Positions 703 through 54,640 of a DNA stretch of 64,000 bases are shown piece by piece; position 1 is the stretch's first letter, and the number at the start of each line of letters is the position of its first letter. The DNA comes from Leyella lascolaii (GTDB taxonomy: Bacteria > Bacteroidota > Bacteroidia > Bacteroidales > Bacteroidaceae), in assembly GCF_900079775.1 (NCBI RefSeq), contig NZ_LT556050.1:347381-411380 (forward strand), read 5' to 3'. The notes under the pieces are model-generated. The model saw nothing but the letters and a program-made list of their open reading frames with translations, ran no database searches and was not told where the DNA came from. Made by a program: the position numbers and the translations under genes.

Positions 703-2163
703 TTATCTCTTCGCGTTCACAAGAAGATCTACCTTGCCGTCATCAATCAGCTTGAGTATAAGCTCACCGAAAAGTGTGTTCTGCCATGCGAACCAAGGAC
801 GAGTGTAGTTGTCCGGATTGTTCTTGTTGAACGATTCGTGCATCAGTCCTGTTCCGGCGTCAGTGCGCTGAAGCGTCTCTATGCACCATTTTATCTCAGC
901 GTCGTCCTGACTTGTGAACGCCTTCATCATTATGGACATTGGCCACACCATGTCATAACCGATGTGCGGACCACCTATGCCCTCGCCTTTCGAGCCGCGG
1001 AAGAAGTAAGGATTGTCCTCGCTCCATACAAAACGGCGTGTGTTCTGATAGATGGGGTCGTTTATATCAACATCACCGAGGTAAGCCATAGCGAGCAGAC
1101 TCGGGACGTTGGCGTCGTCCATGAGGTTGTAGTTGCCGTATCCGTCAACCTCGAAAGCATAAATCTTGCCATACTTGGGATGGTTGTATATGGCGTGCTT
1201 CTGCAGCGCGTCAGCCACCTCGTCAGCCAGAGCGGTACACTCGCCGGCAGTAGCTGCGTCGTTGTTTACCTTTGTAAGAATCTCGGCAGCCTTGCGCAGC
1301 GACGACACTGCCATGAAGTTTGAAGGCACGAGATAAAGGTATGTAGTGGCGTCGTCAGACGGACGGAAGAACGAGCATATGAGTCCGCACGGTTTGGCGG
1401 GAGCACCGAGTCCGTCGTTACATACGGTGTCGAGCTGACGCTCGGTCTTGCGCTGGAACTTGTACGGACCGAGTCCGTTCTTGCGCTGCTGCTCGCGGAA
1501 GGTCTTCAGTATGTTTCTTACGGCAGCCTTCCACTCGTCACCGAACACGGATGTGTCGCCCGTTACCTGCCAGTAATGGTAAGCCAGTCGGAGCGGATAG
1601 CACAGAGAGTCAATCTCATATTTGCGTTCGTGCAGCTCGGGCTTCATGTCTGTGAGGTCGCTTGCCCACGGGTTGTCCTCCAGCGGACCCGGATTGAATG
1701 CGTTGGCATACGGGTCGATGTTGATGCACTTGAGCTGGCGCAGGATCACACCGCGCAACATCTTCTTCAACTCAGGGTCTTTGTTTGCCAGCTGCACATA
1801 GGGCCACACCTGAGCTCCGGAGTCGCGGAGCCACATGGCAGCGATGTCGCCGGTGTAAACGAAAGTGTCGTCCTTGCCGTCGAAGTGCACAGTGGTGTCG
1901 ATAGTGTTCGGGAAGCAGTTCTCAAACATCCATGCCAGATATTTGTTATCCTTCAGGAGCTTCTTCACTTCCTTTATTTTCTTCTCCACAGCATCCGAGC
2001 GGAACAGACGCTCAGACTCCGCCGGACGTTTCGACACGAATGCCGTGGCATCCTTGGCGTGTGTGATGTACTTTTGCGCGTCAAAGTCTTTAGCCTGCGC
2101 AACGTTTGCCGAGAGAGCCAGCATCACGGCTGCTCCGGCAAAGAATTTAAGTCTTTGATTCAT
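703..2163 (-). CDS. GH125 exo-alpha-1,6-mannosidase
   Basis: This 486-residue protein is recognised as glycoside hydrolase family 125 (formerly DUF1237, metal-independent alpha-mannosidase). The family removes terminal alpha-1,6-linked mannose from yeast mannan backbones and N-glycan cores. Residues 1-24 form an export signal ending in AQA, so the enzyme should be periplasmic or surface-exposed. The family motif WLRDS lies at residues 111-115, followed by the conserved NPGPLEDNPWASD and EIDSLCYPLRLAY segments. Length matches the family. It lies 57 bp downstream of the GH76 gene on the same strand, so the pair is probably one operon: the endo enzyme cuts the backbone and this one trims from the ends. 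Substrate in this host is inferred from family. Confidence 0.9.
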   Translation of the reverse strand: MNQRLKFFAGAAVMLALSANVAQAKDFDAQKYITHAKDATAFVSKRPAESERLFRSDAVEKKIKEVKKLLKDNKYLAWMFENCFPNTIDTTVHFDGKDDTFVYTGDIAAMWLRDSGAQVWPYVQLANKDPELKKMLRGVILRQLKCINIDPYANAFNPGPLEDNPWASDLTDMKPELHERKYEIDSLCYPLRLAYHYWQVTGDTSVFGDEWKAAVRNILKTFREQQRKNGLGPYKFQRKTERQLDTVCNDGLGAPAKPCGLICSFFRPSDDATTYLYLVPSNFMAVSSLRKAAEILTKVNNDAATAGECTALADEVADALQKHAIYNHPKYGKIYAFEVDGYGNYNLMDDANVPSLLAMAYLGDVDINDPIYQNTRRFVWSEDNPYFFRGSKGEGIGGPHIGYDMVWPMSIMMKAFTSQDDAEIKWCIETLQRTDAGTGLMHESFNKNNPDNYTRPWFAWQNTLFGELILKLIDDGKVDLLVNAKR

Positions 2164-2220: not shown

Positions 2221-3387
2221 TCACTTCACCGCCGACAGCCTCGCCATCATCTCAATCATTGCAGCCTGATTGAGCAGAGTGCGCACGCCTTTCTTTCCGC
2301 GCGCGTCATAATGGCGTCCGAAAAGTCCGTCCGCGTCACGCGAACCGCCCTTGCCCCACGCCGTGTCCATCGACGCGAGGAACGCCTTCAGATATTTGCC
2401 GTCGTTGTCCACGCCGTAAAGCTCTATATATCCGCGCAGCATCACTGAGTCGAACCACATTTCTCCGCCCCTCAGAATGCGCAGTCCGTCCGCGCGTCCC
2501 TTGTCCTCGAAGAACCTGTCGTATGCCGCAGCCGCCATGAGACGGGCGTCGTCAAGATATTTTCTGTCGCCCGTTATCTTGTAAAGCATTGCCGCCGCCT
2601 GAAGCATCTGACCCGTATTATACGAATACTTGTCGCGTCCCAGACGACCTTTCAGCGTGAGATGGTCGAAATAGAGATGGTCTGTCTTGTCCTCCAGACT
2701 GTCTTTCGTCCATTTGTATATGTCTTGTCCGCGCTCCAGATATTTCTTCTCCTTCGTAGCGTTATACATCTTCAGTGCGAACACACTTGCAGGAGCGTTT
2801 GAACATGTGTTCTTGCTCTCCTTCTTCTGCTCACACCAGTATATGCCGCCTCCGAGCTTGTCGTCATATCCGGACATCACAAACGTCCATATCTCCTCAG
2901 CCCGTTGCAGATAGCTTTTCTTCCCTGTGGCAGCGTAGAGGTCTGCCATGTCGATGCCGAGCCAAATGTTGTCGTCATAGAAACGGTCGCTCTGCGGAGC
3001 CGTGTTCACATACGACGCATATCCGGCAGGCTGCCGCTTGGTGTCATAATACTTGTCAAGACCTTTCAGCATCATGCCGTCCATGACGTCGAGCCAATGC
3101 TTGTCGCCGGACGCCTCATACATGGCACTCACCGACGACACCATAGCCGAATATCCCCAAAGGAACGAATAAGGGTTCTGTCCTTCCTTCACCGGCACCG
3201 CCTCCTGCAAAAGCACCTTGTCGTCCGTCGCCATGTGTTTTCTCACCGCGTCGAATGTCTGCGACGCTCTTTTCATAAGATAGGCATTGCCTCCGTCCTT
3301 CGCCGAGGCACTTGCGCACACACCGCCCAATGCTGCCAGTGCGACGACCGTCAGCAATATGCGGTTAAATAAACTATTGTTCGTCAT
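2221..3387 (-). CDS. GH76 endo-alpha-1,6-mannanase
   Basis: This 388-residue protein matches glycoside hydrolase family 76, which hydrolyses internal alpha-1,6-mannosidic bonds of fungal mannan. Residues 1-29 are a signal peptide (hydrophobic core LLTVVALAALG, small residues before KDGG). The adjacent aspartates of the family's catalytic pair are seen at D138-D139 in YDDNIWLGID. Aromatic helices typical of the (alpha/alpha)6 barrel follow (GGGIYWCEQ, YSYNTGQMLQ). It is the first gene of a two-gene operon with GH125. Its likely promoter is about 390 bp upstream (3777-3807), beyond a repeat array that would form the leader. No SusC/SusD or regulator lies next to it, unlike full mannan utilisation loci. 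Confidence 0.88.
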   Translation of the reverse strand: MTNNSLFNRILLTVVALAALGGVCASASAKDGGNAYLMKRASQTFDAVRKHMATDDKVLLQEAVPVKEGQNPYSFLWGYSAMVSSVSAMYEASGDKHWLDVMDGMMLKGLDKYYDTKRQPAGYASYVNTAPQSDRFYDDNIWLGIDMADLYAATGKKSYLQRAEEIWTFVMSGYDDKLGGGIYWCEQKKESKNTCSNAPASVFALKMYNATKEKKYLERGQDIYKWTKDSLEDKTDHLYFDHLTLKGRLGRDKYSYNTGQMLQAAAMLYKITGDRKYLDDARLMAAAAYDRFFEDKGRADGLRILRGGEMWFDSVMLRGYIELYGVDNDGKYLKAFLASMDTAWGKGGSRDADGLFGRHYDARGKKGVRTLLNQAAMIEMMARLSAVK

Positions 3388-3448
3388 CTTTTGTAAAAAT
3401 AATCAAGCTTATGGGTTAGTAAATACCATATAAATCAAGACAGAGAGC

Positions 3449-3785
3449 AAGGTGGTGCAAGGCGAGAGCAACGACAAGGAGGGAAAACAAAGTTTTACCA
3501 GACTTGGCATTGCCGAGCCGAAGCCCACCTTATGCAAAGGCGGTGCAAGGCGAGAGCAACGACAAGGAGGGAAAACAAAGTTTTACCGGACTTGGCATTG
3601 CCGAGCCGAAGCCCACCTTATGCAAAGGTGGTGCAAACGAGTGGAAAGAGAACTTGTTCTCAATTTTCCGAGTGCAGCCCACCTTATGCAAAGGTGGCGC
3701 AAGGCGAGTGCAACGACAAGGAGGGAAAACAGAGTTTTACCGGACTTGGCATTGCCGAGCCGAAGCCCACCTTATGCAAAGATAC
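3449..3785 (-). repeat. Two-hairpin repeat array (family 1), locus 1
   Basis: On the minus strand this is an array of units 88, 66 and 88 bp long. Each unit starts with a 7-bp stem around loop TGCAT (arms CCACCTT/AAGGTGG at 3613-3631 and 3679-3697, near-perfect at 3525-3543, half at 3767-3785). A second stem follows (AAAAC/GTTTT in the 88-bp type, GAGAAC/GTTCTC at 3648-3661 in the 66-bp type). The same plan with different arm sequences recurs at 6072, 19479, 37310 and 41268. Open frames through this array are products of the repetition. It lies between a promoter (3777-3807) and the mannanase start (3387). Confidence 0.85.
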
Positions 3786-3807
3786 AAAATAAAAATATCC
3801 GCACAAA
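3777..3807 (-). promoter_or_regulatory. Sigma-ABfr-type promoter reading into the repeat array
   Basis: On the minus strand TTTG (3807-3804) is followed after exactly 19 nt by TATCTTTG (3784-3777). This is the Bacteroidetes -33/-7 pattern. Transcription would run left through the array into the GH76-GH125 operon. The -7 box is itself the outer half of the last hairpin of the array. Confidence 0.6.
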
Positions 3808-3954: not shown

Positions 3955-4300
3955 GAGACGCAAAATTTTGCGTCTCACAAGCAGGAGGCTGAGGAATACA
4001 CGTGCAACTGCCTGACAATGAAGGAATGACATGATGAACGGGAGACGCAAGATTTTGCGTCTCTACTGAAGGGAGGCTGATGAATACTCATGCAACTGAC
4101 TGACAATGAAGGAATGCCATACCGACCGGGAGACGCAAGATTTTGCGTCTCTACTGGAGGATGGCTGAGGAATGCACGTGCAAACGCCCGACAATGAAGG
4201 AATGCCATGCCAATCGGGAGACGCAAGATTTTGCGTCTCTACTGGAGGACGGCTGAGGAATGCACATGCAACTGCCCGAAAATGAAGGAATGGACACTGC
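3955..4300. repeat. GAGACGC palindromes (family 2), cluster A
   Basis: Four 22-bp palindromes (GAGACGCAARA joined to TTTTGCGTCTC) start at 3955, 4042, 4130 and 4218, so the period is 87-88 bp. The 65-bp stretches between them are close copies of each other (for example GGCTGAGGAATGCAC, ACAATGAAGGAATG). It is therefore a tandem repeat and not a CRISPR array, where spacers would differ. Relatives sit at 25617, 37183 and 40514. Confidence 0.9.
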
Positions 4301-5725: not shown

Positions 5726-5860
5726 ATTTGCCGGAAAGGCTCTTCCGTGTCACAGAAAAGGCTTTCCGACGTCACAATAAAGCCTTTGTCATCATGCAGG
5801 AAAGGCTCTTCCGCAAACTGATAAAGGCTCTTTGAGAATGCGGAAGAAAACATATCGTAC
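5726..5860. repeat. GGAAAAGGCTTTTCC-like inverted repeats (family 3)
   Basis: Successive short imperfect palindromes of the kind GGAAAGGCTCTTCCG, AGAAAAGGCTTTCCG, AATAAAGCCTTTG and GGAAAGGCTCTTCCG are spaced about 25-35 bp apart. Similar runs occur at 18060-18165, 38128-38200 and 54337-54530. No gene is seen between here and 6072. Confidence 0.6.
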
Positions 5861-6071: not shown

Positions 6072-6322
6072 TTATCTTTGTATAAGATAAGCGGCGTCTC
6101 GGCAGTGTCAAGCCTGGTAAAACTCCGTTTTCCCGACTTGCCGTTGCGCTCGACTTGCATTATCTTTGTATAAGATAAGCGGCACTCGGGCAAATAAGAG
6201 CAAGCTCTTTTGCCGCTCGCTTGCATTATCTTTGTATAAGATAAGCGGCATCTCGGCAGTGTCAAGCCTGGCAAAACTCCGTTTTCCCGACTTGCCGTTG
6301 CGCTCGATTTGCATTATCTTGA
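6072..6322 (+). repeat. Two-hairpin repeat array (family 1), locus 2
   Basis: Three plus-strand units have first hairpins at 6072-6090, 6160-6178 and 6226-6244 (arms TTATCTT/AAGATAA, loop TGTAT), giving periods of 88 and 66 bp. Second hairpins are AAAAC/GTTTT (6119-6131, 6273-6285) and AAGAGC/GCTCTT (6196-6209), the latter enclosed by GGCAA/TTGCC. The order of 88- and 66-bp types matches locus 1. Each first hairpin contains TATCTTTG, a good -7 promoter box. Confidence 0.85.
6138..6168 (+). promoter_or_regulatory. Promoter inside the repeat array
   Basis: TTGC (6138-6141) and TATCTTTG (6161-6168) are separated by 19 nt. The third unit repeats TATCTTTG at 6227-6234, about 160 nt before the esterase start. 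Either could drive that gene. Confidence 0.5.
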
Positions 6323-19478: not shown

Positions 19479-19600
19479 CTATCTTTGCCAAAGATAAGAT
19501 GCGGTTCGGCAATATCAAGTATGGAAAACAAAGTTTACCATCCATGCTACTGCACTCACCTTTCATTATCTTTGTCATAGATAAGCTGCACACCGGGAAA
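19479..19600 (+). repeat. Two-hairpin repeat (family 1), locus 3
   Basis: Two first-type hairpins, 19479-19497 (CTATCTT/AAGATAA, loop TGCCA) and 19566-19584 (TTATCTT/TAGATAA, loop TGTCA), are 87 bp apart. Between them is a second-type hairpin ATGGAAAAC/GTTTACCAT (about 19521-19541). Both first hairpins hold TATCTTTG (19480-19487, 19567-19574). The second lies 100 nt before the efflux operon and is its best promoter candidate. Confidence 0.75.
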
Positions 19601-37309: not shown

Positions 37310-37450
37310 TATTTTCAGCACAAAACAGGCTGCGCTCGGCAATATGAAAGCAAGCTTTCACTGCTCTCACTGGCACTGTTTTTGAATAAAACAGGCTGCG
37401 CTCGGCAATATGAAAGCAAGCTTTCATTGCTCTCACTGGCACTGTTTTTG
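37310..37450 (+). repeat. Two-hairpin repeat (family 1), locus 4
   Basis: Two 66-bp units share a first hairpin CTGTTTT/AAAACAG with loop TGAAT (37376-37394; halves at 37322-37328 and 37442-37448). Second hairpins are TGAAAGC/GCTTTCA (37345-37360 and again 66 bp later). A decayed copy precedes it at 37077-37145. The promoter-like TATCTTTG of other loci is absent here. Confidence 0.82.
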
Positions 37451-39073
37451 TATCATGAAGAATACTCACTTAAATCGGAAAAGCACGTTCAGACAATCAA
37501 CACAAACCTTACAGCATAATCATCATAGGTTGGACAAAAATGAATGTAGAGAGAGTGGTTATTCCTAATCCGCAGTTATGCTCAATACGTATATACAGTT
37601 CCAGTCATACAGACTGCCTTTCTGGCTTGGCTGAGAAGCGGATATACACACGGAGGGAAAATACATGGCAGGATGCCGGCGTCAGTGCAGAAGAAAGACA
37701 TGTGACATACAGTCAAACGAGAAAAATCAGTGCGGACGGTCTGACATCATATTCGCGATTAAAAATTAAAATCAAACATTAGAACACTAACAATAAATAC
37801 ACGATTGACGGTACAATCCTTATCTGTCTTCCACACCATTGCCGCAATCATATTCTGTCTTTTTGCCCGATGCAAACACTCATATCCTCGGTATAAATTA
37901 AGCCGAAATTCATGACGGTAACGTGCCATCCGGTTGAAGTCTGATGCCAGATTCCGGATAAAGAAAAACCGTCTACTGACTGCATAATTATACATAGTCA
38001 TCCTCACGAGAGCACGTTATATGCAACAAGACAACCACATGCACGCATATACACGAGTATTCCGACAATACGATAAAGTCCTGACAATCAACCGGATAAC
38101 ATTACATGCATCACAATTATCAGAAAACACGACTGCAAGAAAGCCTTTTCCATACTGCGATAAAGGCTTTTCCGTCCGTCAGAACGTACCGTTTCACGAC
38201 TCAAAAGAGCATGTTCTGACGCTCAAAATAAGCCTAAATAGTGAATAAAAAGCGTAACGAAGACATTCAGAATGTACCAAACCATACTTCCGAATCAATT
38301 CATCCGACAGACAAACCAATCACTGACACTCCACAGATTCTCTTTTTCTGATTATCAGAATACTTTCTCTTAATCCCTAAAATGTATATTTATACATAAA
38401 AAAGAAGCGGTAATCACAGTGCCACAGCCTCGTTCTCACTTGACCGACTCTTCTCCATCCCATTGCCTCACCGTCATTACAATCCTTCTTCCCTCCTTTG
38501 TCTGCTGTGCCAGCCCACATATCCTGCAAAACCGGAAAAACTTCCGTATGACGTCTGCACTAATTAATGACGATGCCTTCCTTCCTATTCCGGATAAAAC
38601 ATTACATCCCGCCACCCCTCCGCATTTATCTCATGTCCGTCTCACACCGCCGCTTCCTGACCAGCACACGTCTCTCCCGACAATGCCGACCGAATGCCTG
38701 CGATTTACTTCACGTTAAAGATGTGACGACAAAACCACATTGTCATGCTACTGACCAGACCCGCTAATCAGAACGCCAATCATACGCTTACACCATATTG
38801 CCGCCGCCTCAGCCACCCCTCATGCCTGTTCCGCTATACTATATTCCACTTGTTACGGATGCTCCGCAATATATCATCAATAAAGAAACGAATGTTTCCA
38901 CATTACTTCAGCTCAAAATACAGAAGAGCAATAAGCACAATGTCGAAAACAAAAAAAGCGACCGCGCAAACGCGCAGCCGCAAAAAATAATCATGATTAA
39001 ACAATGCAGGCAAATGCAATGAGCACAAGTGCTCAACCTGTCAGGCACAGCCCGCTTCTTAGTAAAATCGTTA
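37451..39073. other. 1.6-kb gene-free region
   Basis: I see no supported gene. Short open frames on both strands lack recognisable domains. A family 3 pair (AGAAAGCCTTTTCC, ATAAAGGCTTTTCCG) lies at 38128-38200. TGTATATTTATACA (38381-38394) is a perfect palindrome. The stretch 38440-38580 is rich in C and T and loosely resembles 41400-41520. Old repeat insertions or decayed genes are possible. Confidence 0.5.
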
Positions 39074-40489: not shown

Positions 40490-41174
40490 AACAATGATGG
40501 CGTCAGCCCAGTAGAGACGCAAAATCTTGCGTCTCACGAGCAAAAGGCTCGACAACGACAGACATATATTCACCTCGCTTCATTGCGCATACTTGCCTGT
40601 GAGACGCAAAATTTTGCGTCTCTACTTTGGATTATCCACATATATTCCGCGTTATTCTCATGTATCAAACGGTTGCGGCTATAACGACAAAAGCATGCCA
40701 TCCAATTGTCAATCACGCCTGTTTTACATTAAATAATGATGGCGTCAACCCAGTAGAGACGCAAAATCTTGCGTCTCACGAGCAAAAGGTTTGGCAACGA
40801 CAGGCATATATTCACCTCACTTCATTGCGCATGTTTGCTTGTGAGACGAAAGAGGAGCGACAACGACAAGCATCTATTTAACTCGCTTTATTGCGCATAC
40901 TTGCCTATGAGACGCAAAATTTTGCGTCTCTACTTTGGATTATCCACATATATTCCGCGTTATTCTCATGTATCAAATGGTGGCGACTATAACGACAAAA
41001 GCCTGCCATCCTATTGTCAATCAAGCCTGTTTTACATTAAACAATGGTGGCGTCAGCCCAGTAGAGACGCAAAATCTTGCGTCTCCCGTGCAAAAGGCTC
41101 GACAACGACAGACATATATTCACCTCGCTTCATTGCACATACTTGCTTGTGAGACGCAAGATTTTGCGTCTCTA
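40490..41174. repeat. Three tandem paired-palindrome elements, cluster D
   Basis: Palindrome pairs start at 40514/40601, 40756/40843 and 41064/41151, always 87 bp apart. In the middle element the second palindrome has lost one arm (GAGACGAAAGAGG), and a fifth intact copy follows at 40909-40930. The elements are joined by near-identical stretches of about 130 bp (TTTGGATTATCCACATATAT to GATGGCGTCA). The two ends of each element form a 25-bp terminal inverted repeat (GTAGAGACGC to GCGTCTCTAC). Confidence 0.88.
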
Positions 41175-41267: not shown

Positions 41268-41351
41268 TGTTTTTGAATAAAACAGGCTGCGTTCGGCAAT
41301 ATGAAAACAAGCTTTCATTGCACTCACTGGCACTGTTTTTGAATAAAACAG
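41268..41351 (+). repeat. Two-hairpin repeat (family 1), locus 5
   Basis: One full 66-bp unit has first hairpins TGTTTT/AAAACA with loop TGAAT at 41268-41284 and again 66 bp later, and a second hairpin with GCTTTCA at 41311-41317. It follows cluster D by about 95 bp. Confidence 0.78.
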
Positions 41352-54159: not shown

Positions 54160-54640
54160 GCTGTATTATTGCATGAATATACGGAAAACACTGTCTGACG
54201 CATGCATAAATATACACGGCAACTCCGCGAGAACCGCGTATTTGCGCGTGACGGCACATCCGGGCGCAAATACGCGAGTTTCAGGCAGTCTGCCCATCAC
54301 GCTGACAGTCAGCGGCTTACGCCCGACACGCCCGTAAGAAGCATTTTTCCGCGCTGCCGGAAAGCCTCTTCGGCACTGCGGAAAAGCCTTTTTGGCACAC
54401 TCATAATGCCTGTATCACACAACAATAAAAGCCGTTTCGCGTTGCGGAACGGCTTTTTCCGTATCATAAAACAGACTTCACGTGGACATATAATACCCGA
54501 AAAGGCTCTTCCGTATGGACGGAAGCATGTCGCGGAACGTTTTCCGGCGTTCTGTCATTTCTATTTTGTCATTTTCCTTTGTCAATATTTTTTACTGTCA
54601 GACCGCATATTTATACAGTTCCGTAAAGTGCCCTCATCCG
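54160..54640. repeat. Composite repeat region related to 17.9-18.3 kb (family 3)
   Basis: TGCATGAATATACGGAAA (54170-54187) is the inverted copy of 17896-17913. CGAGAACCGCGTATTTGCG follows. Inverted units of the GGAAAAGCCTTTT type run from 54337 to 54540, including AAAAGCCGTT/AACGGCTTTT at 54427-54457. TGTCATTTTC and ATTTTTTACTGTCA with GCATATTTATACA (to 54616) close it, as in the other region. No gene is seen. Confidence 0.6.

Follow-up and report, generated by a model that had tools for sequence, protein, structure and literature searches.

Tandem hairpin repeats in register with -7 promoter boxes upstream of a mannanase operon and many other genes of Leyella lascolaii

The tandem hairpins that lie between the promoter and the first gene of a GH76/GH125 mannanase operon in Leyella lascolaii are one member of a dispersed, promoter-hugging family of repeats, and not an element special to mannanase genes. 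We consider it reasonably likely that this family is a tandemly amplifying hairpin repeat that is anchored at -7 boxes, and the function of such a promoter-anchored repeat, if it has any, is general across genes. The mannanase array is located in the window, by which we mean the whole 64-kb stretch of DNA that was analyzed, and the coordinates of the pertinent features are collected in Table 1.

As the initial annotation had stated, inspection of the minus strand upstream of the GH76 gene revealed TTTG, a 19-nt spacer and TATCTTTG (3807-3804 and 3784-3777, respectively), an arrangement that corresponds to the -33/-7 promoter of Bacteroidetes (TTTG, about 19 nt, TAnnTTTG). The motif TTTG-N19-TAnnTTTG was observed 6 times in the 64-kb window, compared to 0.17 occurrences expected from 100 shuffles. 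The annotation had also seen no better promoter box at 3388-3449, and our search extends that observation, as TAnnTTTG was absent from both strands of the segment 3388-3776; the coding start that it had placed 390 nt downstream of the box, at 3387, belongs to a gene with Pfam support. The predicted transcription start falls near A3772, because we took the -7 box to occupy positions -12 to -5, as is given for Flavobacterium in the available portion of PMC9723704. The sole canonical promoter that we found precedes the array, and the most probable transcript at this locus therefore has a hairpin leader. The mannanase transcript probably starts at the edge of the array, and its leader of about 385 nt would then consist of about 322 nt of hairpins, out of an array of 330 nt, followed by 63 nt of ordinary sequence. 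The suggestion of a transcript that opens with stacked hairpins is thus likely to be correct, given the start position predicted from the box.

The array (3780-3451, minus strand) comprises four abutting imperfect hairpins of 88, 66, 88 and 88 nt. In the predicted folds of the corresponding transcript stretches, each unit forms one long interrupted hairpin; the interruptions in the helices caused a plain ungapped palindrome scan of the window to miss the array. The fold of the whole leader was far more stable than that of shuffled sequences (z -7.4), and the 69-nt stretch 3448-3380, which includes the ordinary leader and the GH76 start, folded like its shuffles (z 0.62). One structural detail of the earlier proposal did not survive: the -7 box had been described as half of the last hairpin, but the outer stem here is AAGGTGG/CCACCTT and the TATC is unpaired with it. 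Also, the box precedes the predicted start at this locus and so would not be transcribed. The -7 box and the first arm do make up a short palindrome in many other arrays (TATCTTTGCATAAGATA). The terminal box of unit 4 has changed to CACCTTGC, which leaves the gene end of the mannanase array without a -7 box.

Table 1. Positions in the window of the mannanase promoter, genes and array units, and of two further arrays of the same family
Feature	Positions	Strand	Basis or remark
-33 element TTTG	3804..3807	-	sequence; motif enrichment in window
-7 element TATCTTTG	3777..3784	-	its TTTG (3780-3777) doubles as the first four bases of the array
Predicted transcription start, about A3772	3772	-	inferred, +1 five bases past the box; first outer-stem pairs
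Array unit 1, 88-nt type	3693..3780	-	model R1, 107.8 bits; fold z -3.86 (3685-3772)
Array unit 2, 66-nt type	3627..3692	-	model R2, 91.4 bits; fold z -2.84 (3619-3684)
Array unit 3, 88-nt type	3539..3626	-	model R1, 107.7 bits; fold z -3.89 (3531-3618)
Array unit 4, 88-nt type	3451..3538	-	own-genome match C17:350827-350918; fold z -4.61 (3443-3530)
Ordinary GH76 leader, 63 nt, without TAnnTTTG	3388..3450	-	motif search; fold
GH76 gene, alpha-1,6-mannanase family	2221..3387	-	Pfam PF03663, E 7.8e-42
GH125 gene, exo-alpha-mannosidase family	703..2163	-	Pfam PF06824, E 5.8e-177; next in presumed operon
Second family array, 88/66/88, behind TATCTTTG 6073-6080	units 6077-6322	+	models; upstream of esterase-like gene, probable start 6396
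Single 88-type unit behind TATCTTTG 19480-19487	19480..19574	+	same-strand gene called 88 nt downstream

The annotation had read the hairpins as a leader of the mannanase operon that could attenuate or stabilize the mRNA; as an operon-specific regulator, such a leader would do so under yeast mannan. To a leader specific to this operon we now give hardly any credence. It is true that no canonical promoter other than the one upstream of the array was found for the operon and that the leader is strongly structured, but arrays of the same family are present at 119 other places in the genome, 96 of them with a same-strand gene called downstream, and the nearest orthologous operon, which is described below, is without a unit. 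Simple attenuation is further spoken against by the segment 3300-3860, in which we found no terminator-like site (a G+C-rich hairpin followed by a T run). An Rfam search of the window gave no riboswitch or leader above the gathering score, and only a tRNA elsewhere. It is possible that the array would stabilize the mRNA.

When the mannanase array was used in a BLAST search of the 3.77-Mb genome, at least 64 matches were obtained with 40 of the 112 candidates scored. Covariance models were built from aligned units (34 of the 66-nt type and 40 of the 88-nt type), and for each model the best 150 of more than 2200 candidates in the genome were scored. The 66-type model gave at least 150 matches, corresponding to at least 150 units. 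For the 88-type model, 139 matches were listed and 129 units were retained; the ten left out are eight that lie on 66-type units, a weak match at C5:637713, and C16:233091-233180 (49.7 bits), which would lengthen one array if it were included. The genome thus contains at least 279 units in at least 120 arrays of 1-7 units, 54 of these arrays being single units, and neighboring units, which follow one another head to tail, abut exactly in 154 of the 159 cases among the arrays listed. By a simple codon-usage caller, which is crude and missed metA behind the array at C11:150627, a downstream gene was called for 107 of the 120 listed arrays, with 97 of these genes on the same strand as the array and 10 on the opposite strand (binomial p 5e-19), and no downstream gene was called for the remaining 13. 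The distance from array to same-strand gene has a median of 102 nt and is 250 nt or less in 82 of the 97. Array-bearing genes include what we take to be leuS, purL and metA, names that come from reading the sequences via relatives.

Two additional 66-type units with lower model scores were detected in the window at 37381-37450 and 41272-41341, the first of which has the boundary TTTTTGAAT. The window also contains repeats of other kinds. A second and unrelated array at 3955-4292 has an 88-nt period and the palindrome GAGACGCAAAATTTTGCGTCTC; a genome-wide search for its pattern, GAGACGCAANATNTTGCGTCTC, gave 321 sites versus 0 for the reversed control, and this REP-like, high-copy family coexists with no Y1_Tnp match in the genome. 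A 308-bp tandem repeat with the GAGACGC palindrome is present in two copies at 40550-41161, and short tandem repeats with a 22-nt unit lie at 5735-5787, 38132-38173 and 54347-54398. Words resembling GGCTTTCC or AAAAGCC occur in the units at 5735 and 54347, which may represent another dispersed family of palindromes.

The first unit opens with the TTTG of a TAnnTTTG box in 95 of the 120 listed arrays, and TAnnTTTG is present at 105 of 159 internal junctions. In the sequence that precedes the first unit, and so is not part of the repeat, TTG shows peaks at -27 and -26 (17 and 20 arrays, respectively), positions that correspond to spacings of N19 and N20 from the box. The first junctions of the 120 listed arrays therefore exhibit T-rich flanks together with a correctly spaced TTG, features that the repeat does not supply. 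In 33 arrays the closing arms mostly lack TA, and the first junction has nonetheless kept TA in 18 of them, which argues that the box at that position is not simply part of the repeat. With the box at -12 to -5, transcription would be predicted to begin at one of the first two pairs of the outer stem. There are observations that count against anchoring at promoters: TTG is raised also at -10 (22 arrays), -20 (13), -21 (10) and -7 (9), where most other offsets have 0-6, and TAnnTTTG is missing at the first junction in 25 of the 120 listed arrays, three of which carry a variant, TGTTTTTG. Arrays with this boundary, which are found elsewhere in the genome and are without the TA of a -7 box, may mark insertions at sites other than promoters. 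With regard to a possible target-site duplication, TTTG is present at the opposite end, beside the gene, in 88 of the 120 listed arrays, though TTTG is also the unit's own end.

Possibly, the repeat is instead a mobile promoter, such that the right end of a unit (TTG, 19-20 nt, TAnnTTTG) drives the gene and the array is upstream of the start. Behind 88-type units, TAnnTTTG with TTG at N19-21 was observed at 46 of 73 internal junctions and at 31 of 56 last junctions, and among 20 sampled arrays from relatives, right-end TTG-N19-TAnnTTTG was observed near the gene in 8 (genomes G009, G069, G019, G052 and G004). However, the other 12 sampled arrays are without right-end TTG at this spacing, as are all own-genome junctions behind a 66-type unit (0 of 86 internal and 0 of 64 last), and the mannanase array itself ends in the altered box described above. 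Moreover, a promoter in the right end would leave unexplained the promoter features upstream of the first unit. We judge this explanation to be highly improbable for the family, while some arrays may act as promoters themselves, in which case the array would not always be transcribed.

Loci without arrays were compared with those that have them. The closest named GH76 relative, at locus L135 of a Prevotella MAG, is 65% identical and has GH125 behind GH76; its operon displays a bare TTTG-N20-TAATTTTG that ends 34 nt before the ATG, and neither covariance model found a unit in the 9 kb of this locus, whose GH76 flanks barely align with those of our locus, so that the correspondence is one of position only. 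Applied to the other 79 loci from the GH76 search, the 66 model had no match with an E value of 1 or below, and the only two matches of the 88 model, both at E 0.47, are taken as chance. For murG, an array (3 units) was present in one of 30 genomes of the genus, G010, and the covariance models agreed, as the G010 locus was the only one with real matches; one further match, of E 0.37, lay at the border of a different locus. A genome outside of the 30, G251, also carries a murG array. In 21 of the 29 array-free murG loci, a bare TAnnTTTG precedes the start; the other 8, which are without TAnnTTTG in the 300 nt examined, count against our reading. The G010 array sits between TATCTTTGCATAA and TATCTTTGCATAA plus a short leader, a layout that fits the expectation if units were added at the box. 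By these comparisons, with bare promoters at the L135 operon and 21 of 29 murG loci, units appear to have been added between the -7 box and the leader. It must be weighed against this that no near-identical pair of filled and empty sites was found among the 300 genus genomes scored, of which the closest was 73% identical over a 3.4-kb test region; 98 further genus genomes could not be scored in this comparison.

The 66 model had matches in 20 of 24 genomes of the genus (own included) and in 1 of 16 genomes of other families, and the 88 model, with strict filters, had matches in 28 of 60 genus genomes (own included) and in 6 of 8 selected near relatives. Among 149 genomes of the order, matches were found in 3, namely our own and two from other families; at the four loci of these two genomes that were inspected, like hairpins lie shortly before a reading frame. 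Copy number varies strongly between species, and related arrays include other unit lengths. The genes that bear arrays mostly differ between species as well: comparison of 41 sampled arrays from relatives with those of our own genome (G000) gave 3 likely orthologues (leuS, purL and metA) and a weaker, kinase-like match (45%), a degree of sharing that is not significant, since, with 120 arrays and 3200 genes assumed, we estimate that about 1.5 would be expected. The murG array is common to two relatives. A strict 22-nt period, as for the 11-bp turn of an A-form helix, does not describe the family, as relatives space their units at about 73-74 nt (G251, G009) and 86-87 nt (G009, G065), and also at 66 nt. 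At loci L227 and L228 of G009, the junction between units has an extra small hairpin, the arm of which, examined by eye, may pair backwards or forwards.

Within the units, the two arms have changed in concert. Both sides had changed at 12 of 18 pairs in the 66-type unit and 15 of 28 in the 88-type unit; the covariation score was reached by 0 of 500 shuffles and slid pairings dropped to 33-55% paired, results that are to be read with the caveat that related sequences can beat shuffles without selection and that the structure was derived from the same alignments. The outer stem, AAGATAAGC/GC(A)TTATCTT, which provides the units with terminal inverted repeats like those of a MITE, was paired in 98.0 and 95.9% of aligned-unit cells. 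Sequence identity was 0.925/0.936 within arrays and 0.760/0.798 between arrays. In 37 mixed arrays, moreover, 66 and 88 units shared a 7-nt arm in 78% of comparisons, versus 28% when shuffled, and arms are therefore homogenized within an array irrespective of unit type. A mismatched module, CTCG opposite CTCG with a variable bulged base, is kept in both types, and its two CTCG elements occurred together in 105 of 139 units and 75 of 119.

One explanation for this structure is a genome-wide RNA leader device, whereby the mRNAs of about 100 genes carry hairpins that function as RNA, for example by protecting the message as 5'-terminal stem-loops or by binding a protein that recognizes the conserved U.C/C.U internal loop and its bulged base. 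Such a device would be consistent with the location of arrays between promoter and gene, with a start predicted no more than one or two bases from the outer stem, with the strong covariation of the arms, with an unpaired CTCG/CTCG module that is conserved in both unit types while its bulge varies, and with three pairs of the 88 unit that are rich in G-U on the sense strand. Yet the sense RNA folded better than the antisense RNA in just a minority of units (45 of 125 for the 66 type, 16 of 113 for the 88 type), so selection on an mRNA hairpin is not supported, and few array-bearing genes are shared between species (the three likely orthologues and one weaker match noted above). Counts of G-U and A-C appositions were mixed. 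By the full sense model of the 88 unit, G-U exceeded A-C (208 vs 75 cells) and the three G-U-rich pairs favored the sense RNA, an outcome that counts against the explanation we prefer. In contrast, A-C exceeded G-U at strand-neutral pairs, that is, those predicted on both strands (G-U vs A-C, 15 vs 24 for the 66 type and 11 vs 24 for the 88 type). When the 88-unit pairs 29-68, 30-67 and 39-59 were set aside, there were 42 G-U and 94 A-C cells, or 39 and 86 array-level events, and the inner stems alone of this reduced set gave 29 and 39 events. Because these counts vary with the pairs chosen, we gave more weight to the fold energies of the two strands. An RNA leader device is in our judgment unlikely, and we infer that it is chiefly a process acting on DNA that keeps the arms paired.

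For the dispersed repeat anchored at -7 boxes that we prefer, the following course of events may be envisaged. A unit would have entered directly 3' of the -7 box in a pre-existing promoter, and its right end would have re-created a TATCTTTG-like end; the re-created end would let further units join in register, by insertion or by unequal exchange. The gene would have retained its promoter and acquired a structured leader. Pairing of the arms could be kept by template switching in palindromes or by recognition of the single-stranded hairpin, and any effects on mRNA stability or translation would be secondary and not gene-specific. It counts against this scheme that our profile search, which was for Y1_Tnp, identified no transposase or recombinase. 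Y1_Tnp (RAYT, PF01797) had matches in 11 of the 20 genomes searched but none in G000, G251, G062 and G009, all of which carry the element, and RAYT is therefore not the general mobilizer. A more particular possibility, which we regard as quite unlikely, is that a mobile hairpin enters active promoters where RNA polymerase has melted the DNA, in a transposition-like process that is guided by open transcription complexes. The hairpin would join 3' of the -7 box and its right end would re-create the box as the next target, so that arrays would grow in register and point towards the gene.

If the preferred reading is correct, hairpins that are registered on promoters and point towards genes would equip about 100 genes together with long, structured leaders, in a manner that varies between species, and would offer a natural test of the effects of 5' structure on Bacteroidetes mRNAs. 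It would also raise the question of what enzyme places DNA behind -7 boxes. Our observations are a warning against taking such arrays for operon-specific regulators.

In searches of PMC literature, the titles and abstract openings obtained contained no description of this hairpin-repeat family, most subscription papers being outside that scope. Among the described elements that we found, and from the portions of the papers available, the nearest are BrickBuilt, the pneumococcal BOX element and REP palindromes. BrickBuilt, a MITE of Porphyromonas gingivalis, is described in the sections available as having a 23-nt unit, a leader, a tail, terminal inverted repeats and 19 copies (PMC4596501). It resembles the present family in that both are dispersed, intergenic tandem repeats of Bacteroidales with varying copy number, and in the patterned changes inside one element; promoter activity, together with target duplications at some sites, is described for BrickBuilt (PMC4596501). 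The arrays described here are not BrickBuilt elements, however: their units are hairpins of 66 or 88 nt that abut in 154 of 159 cases, no leader or tail was recognized, at least 120 arrays are present, and these mostly have one orientation, towards the gene, with the first base at the -7 box.

The BOX element of Streptococcus pneumoniae (boxA-boxBn-boxC), for some copies of which transcription has been shown, is likewise a modular dispersed repeat with a variable number of modules and strong predicted RNA structure, and its authors, in the text available, favor a parasitic origin (PMC3049150). Pneumococcal repeats are there reported as enriched between convergent genes, in contrast to the arrays here, which are 5' of genes. 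REP palindromes, in the available account of the CGTC and GTAG classes, are 20-40 bp long with a GTAG or CGTC tag, and RAYT is associated with GTAG (PMC3733652). They share with our units a high copy number of hairpins, the exchange of complementary stem bases and, in some families, clustering. Our 66- and 88-nt units fall outside of the REP/RAYT group, as inspection of the alignments gave unit ends of TTTG..CATAAG and ..TATC with no GTAG or CGTC tag seen, and there was no Y1_Tnp match. The first unit of an array is registered on the Sigma-ABfr promoter of Bacteroidetes, with -33 TTTG and -7 TAnnTTTG in the available parts of PMC7366714 and PMC9723704, which is a promoter class and not a repeat.
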